A stretch of 36,169 nucleotides of DNA, taken from positions 1 through 36,169 of the forward strand of contig JALTKS010000107.1 in NCBI GenBank assembly GCA_027006175.1, given 5' to 3'. The notes under the pieces were generated by a model. It was not told the origin of the DNA. It ran no database searches and saw nothing but the letters and a program-made list of their open reading frames with translations. Origin of the DNA: Gammaproteobacteria bacterium (GTDB lineage Bacteria > Pseudomonadota > Gammaproteobacteria > AKS1). Below, one piece after another: positions 27,117-31,087 of this stretch. The translations under genes were made by a program, and so were the position numbers. The first letter of the stretch is position 1; each line of letters starts with the position of its first letter.

Positions 27117-29252
27117 ATGCAACGCGCTCAACAAATTCTGCAAGATACCTTCGGTTATCAAGCATTCCGTCATCATCAGGCAGACATCATTCAGTCCTTA
27201 CTCAATGATCAAGATGCGTTAGTTCTTATGCCGACCGGTGGCGGCAAATCACTTTGTTACCAACTACCCGCCATGATTCGTCAGGGTACCGGTATTGTTA
27301 TTTCACCATTGATTGCCTTAATGCAAGATCAGGTCGATGCCCTCAATGAACTGGGCGTCAACGCGGCTTTTCTTAATTCCAGTTTAGATAGCCAAACGCA
27401 ATACCAAACCGAACAACAATTAATTAACGGTGAGTTAAAACTGTTGTACATTGCGCCAGAACGATTACTCACTGAACGCATGTTGTCGTTACTTGATAAA
27501 ACCGATGTTGCCCTGTTCGCCATTGATGAAGCGCATTGTGTTTCACAATGGGGGCATGATTTTCGTAAAGAATACCAACAGCTCAATATCTTACAGCAGC
27601 GTTTTCCAAACGTACCCCGTATTGCGCTAACCGCAACCGCTGACCAACGTACTCGACAGGAAATTATCGATCAACTGCAACTTCATGATGCTGCCATTTA
27701 TATTAATAGTTTTGATCGACCGAATATTCGCTACACCATCAGTGAAGGACAAAACCCCAAACAACGTTTATGGAAATTTATACAGCAGCATCATGCTAAT
27801 GATGCAGGAATTGTATATTGCCTCTCTCGTAAAAAAGTAGAATCCATTGCCGCCTGGTTATCGCAACAAGGACGCGAAGCGCTCGCCTACCACGCCGGCA
27901 TGCCCGCCGAACAGCGTCAGCTTCACCAACAACGATTTTTGCGCGAAGAAGGTATTATTATTGTTGCCACCATTGCCTTTGGTATGGGTATTGATAAACC
28001 AGACGTGCGATTTGTTGCACATTTAAGTTTACCTAAAAGCATTGAAGCCTATTATCAGGAAACTGGTCGTGCCGGTCGTGATGGTGAGCCGGCGAATGCC
28101 TGGATGGCATACGGTTTAAACGATGTTATTACCCTGCGAAAAATGATGCAAGACTCTGATGGCGCAGATCAATTCAAACGCATCTCACAACACAAGCTCG
28201 ATGCCATGTTAGCGTTATGCGAACTCACCAGCTGTCGCCGCCAAAGCATACTCCGTTATTTTGATGATAAACTAGAACAAGCCTGTGGCAATTGCGATAC
28301 TTGCATCAACCCACCACAAACATGGAACGGTACCGAGGCGGCACAAAAAGCCTTATCCTGTGTCGTCCGTACCGGTCAACGCTTTGGCGTGAACTACGTC
28401 ATTGATGTACTCATCGGCGATGAAAATGAACGTATTGAAAAATTCGGTCACGACAAATTAACGACCTACGGTATTGGCAAAGAACTCAGCCATAGTGAAT
28501 GGCGTGGTGTGTTTCGCCAATTAATTGCGCTAGGGTATTTAGGTGTCGATTTAGAGGGCTATGGCGGTTTACACCTTAATGAACAGGCACGCCCCTTATT
28601 GCGCGGCGAAATAAATTTGCAACTTCGTCATCAATTAAAACCTGAAACGCTTAAAGGCAGCAAAAAACCTAAAAAAACCTCTGCATTACGTTCTGTTGAT
28701 GAAGAACTGTTTAACGCCTTGCGTGATCAACGTACGGCTATTGCTAAAGAATCAGGCGTGCCACCCTATATCATTTTTCATGACAGCACCTTGCAGGAAA
28801 TGGCCAACACGCGACCGGGTTCTCTTGATGCCATGCGCTACATTTCAGGCGTTGGCGAACAAAAGTTAAACAAATATGGCCAGCAGTTTTTGGATATTAT
28901 TCTTCTGCATCCTTTGCCCGAAGTGCTCGATAACAATCTGAGCGACACAATCAATGACACCTTAATGCTTCACTCAAAAGGCCTTGATCCTGAGAGCATT
29001 TCACAACAACGTGAAATTAAAATTGCGACTGTGTATGCGCACCTGGCAGAAGCGATCAGTAGTGGTTTACTCGATGTAAAAAAGGTGGTTGATTTAGACG
29101 AACCAGAATACAACGACATCATCAACGCACTCGAAATGGTTGATGACAACGAAGACAACCCACCGAAACAGAAACGCTTAAAACCTGTTTTCGAAGCACT
29201 TGATGGGACTTATGAATACTGGGTTCTAAAATGCATACAGGCAAGTTTGTAA
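27117..29252 (+). CDS. recQ: ATP-dependent DNA helicase RecQ, extended C-terminus
   Basis: 711 aa from ATG 27117; a TTG at 27102 fuses with the AAAGGA box and is unlikely. The helicase core has MPTGGGKSLCYQLPA, FAIDEAHCVSQWGHDFR, IALTATAD and QETGRAGRDG. The zinc site (CRRQSILRYFDD, then CGNCDTC), an RQC winged helix and an HRDC domain (about residues 515-595) follow. After HRDC there are roughly 110 more residues with a helix-turn-helix pattern (SISQQREIKIATVYAHLAEAI), similar to the HTH_40 domain of some RecQ proteins; Escherichia coli RecQ (about 610 aa) lacks it. It unwinds DNA in recombination and fork repair. Confidence 0.95.
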   Translation: MQRAQQILQDTFGYQAFRHHQADIIQSLLNDQDALVLMPTGGGKSLCYQLPAMIRQGTGIVISPLIALMQDQVDALNELGVNAAFLNSSLDSQTQYQTEQQLINGELKLLYIAPERLLTERMLSLLDKTDVALFAIDEAHCVSQWGHDFRKEYQQLNILQQRFPNVPRIALTATADQRTRQEIIDQLQLHDAAIYINSFDRPNIRYTISEGQNPKQRLWKFIQQHHANDAGIVYCLSRKKVESIAAWLSQQGREALAYHAGMPAEQRQLHQQRFLREEGIIIVATIAFGMGIDKPDVRFVAHLSLPKSIEAYYQETGRAGRDGEPANAWMAYGLNDVITLRKMMQDSDGADQFKRISQHKLDAMLALCELTSCRRQSILRYFDDKLEQACGNCDTCINPPQTWNGTEAAQKALSCVVRTGQRFGVNYVIDVLIGDENERIEKFGHDKLTTYGIGKELSHSEWRGVFRQLIALGYLGVDLEGYGGLHLNEQARPLLRGEINLQLRHQLKPETLKGSKKPKKTSALRSVDEELFNALRDQRTAIAKESGVPPYIIFHDSTLQEMANTRPGSLDAMRYISGVGEQKLNKYGQQFLDIILLHPLPEVLDNNLSDTINDTLMLHSKGLDPESISQQREIKIATVYAHLAEAISSGLLDVKKVVDLDEPEYNDIINALEMVDDNEDNPPKQKRLKPVFEALDGTYEYWVLKCIQASL

Positions 29253-29276
29253 CAAACTGTAACAACCCAATATACT
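29247..29276 (+). promoter_or_regulatory. Possible promoter of the peptide-multicopper oxidase unit
   Basis: TTGTAA (4 of 6), an 18-base spacer and TATACT (5 of 6) lie at the end of recQ. A start near 29283 would give a leader of about 105 bases. Two TGTAACA motifs overlap the -35 and spacer, which would suit a regulator. Other -35/-10 pairings in the stretch to 29350 are poorer. Confidence 0.4.
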
Positions 29277-29324
29277 GATAACATTTGTTACAAAAAACCG
29301 CTTGCACGACACTCTCCTGTTACA
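29248..29324 (+). repeat. Four TGTWACA motifs ahead of the oxidase unit
   Basis: The 7-mer TGTAACA occurs at 29248-29254 and 29258-29264, and its reverse complement TGTTACA at 29286-29292 and 29318-29324. Two face one way ten bases apart, and two the other way. This is the pattern of a transcription-factor binding cluster; it does not match the copper-responsive CueR or CopR boxes I know. Confidence 0.5.
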
Positions 29325-29387
29325 TACACATGTTTAAATACTAACCGTGGAATAAATATTGTCATTAATACTTTAAAGGAGAATGTC

Positions 29388-29489
29388 ATGGACAGCACAA
29401 TGTACCTCGGAATGGGTTTTTACTGGTTCGTCCCTCTTGTCGTAATGGGATTATTCGTTTGGTTACTGGTCTCTTTTCTGAAAGACTGA
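29388..29489 (+). CDS. 33-residue single-pass membrane peptide
   Basis: Starts MDSTMYLGMGFYWFVPLVV and ends VSFLKD. A short polar N-terminus with Met, Tyr and Gly leads into one hydrophobic helix (about residues 9-30) and a KD end. AAAGGAG stands six bases before the ATG, a near-perfect ribosome site. The stop is 31 bases before the multicopper oxidase start, so the two are probably one operon. No cysteine or histidine is present, but three N-terminal or helix methionines could contact copper. I do not recognise a named family; similar short Met/Gly/Trp-rich membrane peptides occur near metal genes. Real translation is likely; function unknown. Confidence 0.7.
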   Translation: MDSTMYLGMGFYWFVPLVVMGLFVWLLVSFLKD

Positions 29490-29520
29490 TAGCAAACCTG
29501 CTTTAACAACGGAGAACAAA

Positions 29521-31038
29521 ATGAAAAGACGTGATTTCTTATTAGGTGGATTGGGTGTAACAGCCGGTATTGCAACAGTTACATCCGGATCGTTTGCAAT
29601 GGGGCAGATGATGTCAGGTGGTAACGATGCTTATCGCCCACCCCTTTCATTACAAGACTATGCACTACCCGCACTGGATGAAGGAACCAGTATTCAGGGC
29701 AAACAAGTCTTTAAGTTGACGTTACAGGCAGGTGAATCACAATTACTACCCGGCTTAAGTACCGAAACCATTGGCATTAACCAAAACTTTCTTGCGCCCG
29801 TTTTACGGTTTAAAAAAGATCAGACTGTCCGCATGGAAGTCAGCAACAGACTGAATGAAACCGCGGCTCTGCATTGGCATGGTATGATCTTACCTGCGAC
29901 ACAAGATGGCGGTCCTCACCAGGCCATTAAATCAGGTGACGATTGGGTCGCTGAATGGAAGGTTATTAATGAACCTGCCACCTATTTTTATCATTCACAC
30001 ACTCATAATCATACCGGCGAACAAGTCTGGCGTGGTCTGGCCGGACAAATGCAAATTATTGATGAAGATCGCGATGCCGAATTAGGTATTCCTCACCAAT
30101 ATGGTGTTGATGACTACCCCGTTATTATCACTGACCGCGCCTTTGATAAATCCGGTGCGCTGTATTACAGCAATACTCGTATGCAAAAAATGCAGGGAAT
30201 GCAAGGTAACGTTATCTTGGTTAATGGTGTCGCAGACTCCGTATTAAAACCCAAGAAATCATTGGTTCGCTTACGTTTGCATAATGCATCCAATGCACGC
30301 TTTTATGATTTACATTTTTCAGATAACCGTCCTTTCCAATTGGTTGCTACTGACGGCGGTATGCTTGAACAACCACAAACCCTAAACAGAATTCGGCTCA
30401 CCCCTGCCGAGCGTGCCGACATCATTGTTGATTTATCGGATGGCAAACCGGTATCACTGCAAAATCGTAAAGGTTACGGCAATCTCAACACGGGCATGAT
30501 GAGTAACGGTGCATTAGATACCAATTTCGATATTTTTCATATTGAACCCAGTCAGGCTGAAAAAGTACCTGCCTTTACAACAGCACAATTGATTCGCTTA
30601 CCTAACTGGTTTAACGCACAAGGCTTCAATGTTGATATTGCGACAACACGTCACTTACAACTCGATATGCAAATGGGACCTGCGATGATGTTCGGTTCAG
30701 GTGGTTTTTTCATCAACGAAAAAGCCTACGAACTCAATACGATCAATGAAGTGGCAAAAGCCAATACCTATGAAGTTTGGGAACTGAGAAACCCTTCGAT
30801 TACGCACCACCCTATTCATATACATAACACACAATTCAGGATTATTGATCGTAATGGTCGCATACCTTCAGCGGCGGAATCTGGGCTGAAAGATACCGTC
30901 ATTGTACACTCTGAAGAAACGGTTAGAGTCTTATTACCAACAGGGCCATACAAAGATGCTGACAACCCCTATATGTACCACTGTCATATTATTGAACATG
31001 AGGATGCCGGCATGATGGGACAATTTACCGTCACGTAA
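29521..31038 (+). CDS. Tat-exported multicopper oxidase, CueO/laccase-like
   Basis: 505 aa with three cupredoxin domains. The N-terminus KRRDFLLGG followed by a hydrophobic stretch is a twin-arginine signal, fitting export in folded, copper-loaded form. All copper ligand motifs are present: HWH (118-120), HSH (158-160) in a histidine-rich HSHTHNHTGEQVWRGLAG, HPIHIH (430-435), and HCHIIEHEDAGMM (487-499) with the T1 Cys488 and axial Met498. Met clusters at 217-224 and 383-390 could bind extra copper as in CueO. The likely activity is oxidation of Cu(I) or phenolic substrates with O2 reduced to water. GGAG precedes the ATG. No other copper genes lie nearby, so the substrate is open. Confidence 0.93.
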   Translation: MKRRDFLLGGLGVTAGIATVTSGSFAMGQMMSGGNDAYRPPLSLQDYALPALDEGTSIQGKQVFKLTLQAGESQLLPGLSTETIGINQNFLAPVLRFKKDQTVRMEVSNRLNETAALHWHGMILPATQDGGPHQAIKSGDDWVAEWKVINEPATYFYHSHTHNHTGEQVWRGLAGQMQIIDEDRDAELGIPHQYGVDDYPVIITDRAFDKSGALYYSNTRMQKMQGMQGNVILVNGVADSVLKPKKSLVRLRLHNASNARFYDLHFSDNRPFQLVATDGGMLEQPQTLNRIRLTPAERADIIVDLSDGKPVSLQNRKGYGNLNTGMMSNGALDTNFDIFHIEPSQAEKVPAFTTAQLIRLPNWFNAQGFNVDIATTRHLQLDMQMGPAMMFGSGGFFINEKAYELNTINEVAKANTYEVWELRNPSITHHPIHIHNTQFRIIDRNGRIPSAAESGLKDTVIVHSEETVRVLLPTGPYKDADNPYMYHCHIIEHEDAGMMGQFTVT

Positions 31039-31047
31039 TCACAACCA

Positions 31048-31087
31048 GCTTAGTGAAATAGTCTCCCCTATTTCACTAAGCAGTTTT
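31048..31087 (+). terminator. Terminator of the multicopper oxidase, convergent
   Basis: A perfect 14-bp stem (31048-31061 with 31068-31081) and a 6-base loop, followed on the plus strand by AGTTTTT. The stop codon of the convergent DUF4149 gene (31076-31078) lies within the stem. On the minus strand no T-run follows, so it acts mainly on the oxidase transcript. Confidence 0.88.

Follow-up and report, generated by a model that had tools for sequence, protein, structure and literature searches.

A peptide of 33 amino acids with a single membrane helix, encoded directly ahead of a CueO-like multicopper oxidase (MCO) in a gammaproteobacterial genome, is very probably the product of a real gene. 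The window, which is the whole 36,169-nucleotide stretch of DNA analyzed, carries the two reading frames in tandem. We tentatively favor, at a little under even chances, a genuine small gene whose product is a membrane accessory of copper export or oxidation and which is the first cistron of a regulated peptide-MCO unit.

The 33-codon reading frame

The open reading frame (ORF) occupies positions 29388 to 29489 of the forward strand, with an ATG start, 33 codons, and a TGA stop, and translates as MDSTMYLGMGFYWFVPLVVMGLFVWLLVSFLKD. A Shine-Dalgarno sequence, AAAGGAG, lies on the same strand at 29375-29381, 6 nt 5′ of the ATG, and 31 bases (29490-29520) separate the peptide stop from the MCO start at 29521, in agreement with the preliminary description of the locus. 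That description also mentioned Met residues near the N-terminus and one strong hydrophobic helix. Met is found at positions 1, 5, and 9 (also 20), and the helix is borne out by a maximum Kyte-Doolittle value of 2.58 (17-residue window) and by the AlphaFold2 model, a single helix spanning residues 3-32 (pLDDT 94). The peptide contains neither Cys nor His, its sole Pro is residue 16, its C-terminus is VSFLKD, and only two Met residues besides the start would be periplasmic.

The likelihood that such a frame arises by chance was estimated from 20,000 dinucleotide shuffles of the 268-bp gap between recQ and the MCO gene. An ATG ORF of at least 33 codons is common in the shuffles (25%), such an ORF preceded by AAGGAG at 4-9 nt occurs in 2 of 20,000, and one that also encodes a comparable helix in none of 20,000. 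Thus, the ORF is probably a real gene, and the peptide is probably translated. That it is a chance, untranslated ORF is very improbable. Codon usage (log-odds of -0.21 per codon) is uninformative at such length and composition and leaves room for this explanation, as does the lack of a homologue, but the rarity of the ORF with its ribosome site in the shuffles and its location as the first gene behind a duplicated promoter argue against it.

The oxidase gene and the promoter block

The MCO gene (29521-31038, forward strand) encodes 505 amino acids with a Tat-type signal (MKRRDFLLGG) and copper-ligand motifs that, read directly from the translation, are intact (HWHG, HSH, HPIHIH, and HCHIIEHEDAGM). 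Three Cu-oxidase domains are recognized. The best-matching model is CueO, an NCBIfam equivalog, at 368 bits against a cut-off of 525, and the Pfam TAT_signal match falls below its cut-off, with the motif itself visible. Judged by these sequence features, the enzyme is CueO-like and not a strict CueO. An IMG/VR search with the MCO returned no match. The gene has its own ribosome site, whose GGAG lies at 29511-29514 on the forward strand. Downstream, a terminator-like hairpin of 14 pairs followed by a T run (31048-31081, forward strand) closes the unit; therefore, peptide and oxidase form one regulated unit. The transcriptional linkage of the peptide to an exported MCO is supported by this terminator and by the promoter block that the two genes share.

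The promoter block (29246-29356, forward strand) is 111 bp long, 72% identical to a second copy in the same genome (G000:C31:2236-2346) and 69% identical to a copy in a relative (L031:2237-2346). It contains the repeat TGTAAC-N4-TGTAACA...GTTACA (29248-29292, forward strand), probably a response-regulator site. The repeat is found in only two places in the genome, here and on C31 beside a response regulator, and once in each MCO-bearing relative; the congeners G001-G003 contain none, and a reversed-pattern control had no match. On C31, the block lies between an OmpR-type response-regulator gene (Response_reg and Trans_reg_C domains) and the gene for a 98-aa Met-rich exported protein. In L031, it lies upstream of a Met-rich protein and an MCO and adjoins a histidine kinase and a response regulator that is 77% identical. 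The distance from the start of the promoter match to the first ATG is 142 bases for the peptide and 141 and 150 bases for the other copies; thus, the peptide fills the first-gene slot of a two-component-regulated unit. The gene content of the regulon suggests copper as its signal. The regulon itself is split here. The Met-rich protein and the MCO, which form one operon in relatives, are encoded apart in the window's genome, and a separate copy of the promoter with the TGTAAC repeat precedes each of them (window 29246-29356; L084:1501-1611, equivalent to G000:C31).

Distribution among relatives

Two relatives, G196 (same locus as L031) and G060, have an MCO of 77-79% identity and readable upstream DNA. 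Neither has the 33-aa ORF upstream of the MCO, and the slot behind the same promoter is occupied by a Met-rich exported protein of 142-157 aa. The frame is therefore absent from both MCO relatives, which is the weaker form of the result named beforehand as refuting, but its place is taken by a different gene and not by a broken version of the frame. The other six genomes examined from the family to which G196 and G060 belong contain no close MCO. Conservation of the peptide together with the oxidase, which had been anticipated, is thus rejected for the closest relatives. Derivation of the peptide from the slot's Met-rich protein is also rejected because the sequences are unrelated and the equivalent gap in L031 contains no such ORF. 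The Met-rich exported proteins directly upstream of the MCO (L031:2387-2815 and L101:838-1311) carry imperfect GGMMGQTxQ/GGMHGQ repeats, and the one that was scanned matched no Pfam family.

Within the genus, contig C190 of G003 encodes a 95% identical MCO and ends inside that gene. In G001 and on contig C313 of G003, recQ lies near DUF4149 and greA genes, with no promoter block, peptide, or MCO; therefore, the cassette is accessory in the genus. G003 contains two different DUF4149-greA loci: L032, on C190, shares 96.7% identity with the window, and L082, on C313, shares 81%. C190 may therefore belong to a strain close to the window's species and have been binned into G003 by mistake. A histidine kinase gene lies between the MCO and DUF4149 genes on C190, of which only a 3′-end remnant seems to be left on C313.

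A tblastn search with the 33-mer found no homologue in 369 genomes of the class (best foreign E = 0.012, to an unrelated long protein) and none among plasmids. The peptide is an orphan, so far found only in the window's genome. The earlier interpretation holds in part: a membrane peptide that is probably translated and is linked to an exported MCO stands, and conservation with the oxidase does not. The roles first suggested for it (help with membrane delivery, copper loading, or anchoring of the oxidase, or regulation) are inferences.

Orphan status, the presence of another gene at this place in relatives, and the accessory nature of the cassette within the genus all suit a lineage-specific young gene or a passive leader ORF that lacks a conserved function. 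Such an ORF would be translated because a strong duplicated promoter and a ribosome site lie upstream; it would take the place of the Met-rich protein, and its effect would at most be to hold ribosomes on the transcript upstream of the MCO. We consider this rather unlikely, since the frame encodes a complete single-helix membrane protein behind an optimal ribosome site.

Small membrane proteins in copper loci

The weak tblastn matches of the 33-mer include two SHOCT-type small proteins (G160 and G248), both encoded beside an MCO. Members of this SHOCT-type group have 60-90 aa, with a Met/Gly/aromatic N-terminus, one transmembrane (TM) helix, and a SHOCT tail. The window's genome encodes one after a CopA-type ATPase (G000:C117; L088:1360-1587), and others flank MCOs (L003, L050, L109, L111, and L119). 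Against a profile of the N-terminal halves of SHOCT-type proteins, built without the peptide, the peptide scores 13.0 bits; members scored by leave-one-out range from 9.3 to 53.3 bits, and the peptide's score is reached by 2 of the 197 TM proteins used as background and by 21 of 5000 segment shuffles. With SHOCT-less members added to the profile, the peptide scores 17.0 bits, a value reached by 1 of the 197 background proteins and 4 of the 5000 shuffles. The chance rate of its resemblance to the membrane half of SHOCT-type proteins is accordingly roughly 0.1-1% in these controls. These profile scores are weak, so the resemblance hints at homology without proving it; the likeness to the copper-locus group may reflect convergent TM composition. 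Being somewhat better than chance, it also counts against a young gene or passive leader. The peptide has no Pfam match to a C-terminal SHOCT domain, and the ORF ends after the TM helix, 31 bases from the MCO.

A Trp at the C-terminal end of the TM helix was considered as a mark of MCO-adjacent members, but the pattern used to look for it was too loose to decide. In a Hyphomicrobiales MAG, the gene for a Met-rich TM protein of 68 aa (L036:2733-2939) has a strong ribosome site and lies 61 bp ahead of an MCO gene; its product does not fit the SHOCT-like profile (-2.4 bits) and has no Pfam match. Separately, a SHOCT-type gene directly downstream of an MCO in G363 (L105:3055-3267) is interrupted by an in-frame TGA just past the TM helix, at a position that is Trp in the congener G160; the outcome is a natural or artefactual SHOCT-less form.

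Another profile, A1, has members in 65 of the 369 class genomes. It includes the peptide among its 20 rows, so the recovery of the peptide by A1 is no evidence. A copper ATPase, MCO, or Cus gene lies within 1.5 kb at 20 of 30 fetched group loci and at 0 of 27 control loci, the latter being other TM matches from the 33-mer tblastn search. The A1 matches include eleven short SHOCT-less frames (L188-L198) across Gammaproteobacteria, which encode 37-45 aa with Met, His, Gly, and Trp residues and a TM helix. A copper ATPase, Cus, or MCO gene lies within a few kb at 10 of these 11 loci, a figure not directly comparable with 0 of 27 because the SHOCT-less windows are larger than the control windows. 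The eleventh locus (L195) has only YVTN and DUF302 genes, which recur in SHOCT-less loci. The pN/pS ratios in two same-family pairs are 0.35 and 0.13, and by this measure the SHOCT-less peptides look to be under purifying selection. One of them, encoded in the congener G002 (L196:5305-5427, equivalent to G002:C1:363304-363426), belongs to an island that also carries Cus and two ATPase genes. A scan of six SHOCT-less peptides found no matching Pfam or NCBIfam family, and a search of the open literature on SHOCT proteins in copper loci found nothing relevant. Membership of the window's peptide in the SHOCT-less family by profile is rejected, as its score of 0.3 bits falls inside the background.

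Similar tiny membrane proteins in copper loci lend indirect support to a copper link for the peptide. A broader reading, possible although we would sooner doubt it than accept it, is that the peptide belongs, as a minimal and divergent example, to an unrecognized and widespread class of tiny membrane proteins that are standard accessories of bacterial copper export and oxidation. Proteins of this class would have a Met/His/Gly/Trp N-terminus and one TM helix, with or without a SHOCT tail, and would serve CopA, CusCBA, and CueO/CopA oxidases, for example by binding Cu(I) at the periplasmic face of the membrane or by organizing copper proteins.

Proposed role of the peptide

In the favored reading, a membrane accessory of copper export or oxidation, the peptide would be the first cistron and the MCO the second, transcribed from a promoter common to an OmpR-type two-component regulon, with the terminator closing the unit. 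The product would be a single-pass inner-membrane peptide, probably with its N-terminus out and its C-terminus in, the one pointer to this orientation being a single C-terminal Lys. Met5 and Met9 would then lie at the periplasmic face. The peptide may work like the small proteins with Met, Gly, and aromatic residues and a TM helix, most with a cytoplasmic SHOCT tail, that are encoded beside CopA ATPases, CueO/CopA oxidases, and Cus pumps. One possibility is that it keeps Cu(I), or a partner protein, close to the part of the membrane at which the Tat-exported oxidase folds and is loaded. The reading frame and its ribosome site, the duplicated promoter, the tie to the MCO gene, and the location of similar proteins in copper loci are observed; translation, topology, copper sensing by the regulon, contact with Cu(I), and any influence on the oxidase are inferred.

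The peptide adjoins the MCO and is co-transcribed with it, as a dedicated subunit or membrane anchor of that oxidase would be. However, no such partner accompanies the MCO orthologues that are 77-79% identical, and CueO-type oxidases are soluble periplasmic enzymes, which makes a subunit or anchor distinctly improbable.

The large components of bacterial copper systems are well mapped, yet the tiny membrane proteins encoded with them lack annotation. Should these proteins help in copper transfer or in maturing the oxidase, a common part of such systems will have gone unnoticed, with the window's peptide as a minimal, single-helix case. The wider point is this unannotated group in copper loci, reached here via an orphan peptide. 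The SHOCT-less versions in Cus and Cop loci are easy to delete and test, and one is present in a congener with a single-contig genome.

Comparison with known small proteins

The known parallel in gene order is CutF, a small ORF directly upstream of CutO, a CueO-type, Tat-exported MCO that it regulates in Rhodobacter capsulatus (PMC8456105, PMC9973294). CruR of Bordetella, related to CutF and like it of the DUF2946 type, is encoded upstream of a copper-regulated transporter gene (PMC9426467). The window's peptide shares the arrangement of CutF, being encoded just ahead of a Tat-exported MCO of the CueO type. It could be a regulatory upstream ORF, with MCO translation governed by the nascent peptide, either through its insertion into the membrane during synthesis or through its sensing of copper. 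It matches cutF-cutO in position and distance (PMC8456105, PMC9973294), and the exported enzyme downstream is of the same kind as CutO. However, unlike CutF and CruR, the peptide lacks a Cys motif, a Pro-rich C-terminus, and a cleavable Sec signal with an exported domain. Searches of the peptide found no DUF2946 match in Pfam, no CxxC or CxxxC motif, and no Pro-rich stalling-like motif at the C-terminus. The MCO has its own unshielded ribosome site, with no stem-loop of the kind seen with CutF over it, and both stretches of RNA examined, including the intergenic one, fold worse than shuffles (z = +1.2). These absences rule out a sensor of the CutF/CruR type and argue against the regulatory role raised earlier in that form; regulation by the ORF in a broader sense is improbable.

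KdpF, CydX, and AcrZ are single-TM accessory subunits of about 30-50 aa that are encoded with, or act with, the enzyme they assist. Among families, the peptide matches only KdpF, with a score of 12.5 bits where the cut-off is 57. Unlike in the setting of these subunits, the neighbor of the peptide is an exported soluble oxidase.

The SHOCT (PF09851) proteins of copper operons (G000:C117, G160, G248, and G012, the last three beside an MCO) resemble the peptide in their short Met/Gly/aromatic N-terminus, one TM helix, strong ribosome site, and adjacent copper genes. Unlike them, the peptide stops directly after the TM helix, with no linker and no SHOCT tail. The core of the SHOCT-less copper-locus peptides (L188-L198), MHD...W..GFGHW...LLFW, is absent from the window's peptide. 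However, they share with it the size class, the Met/Gly/aromatic N-terminus, a single TM helix with no SHOCT tail, and a place in a copper locus.
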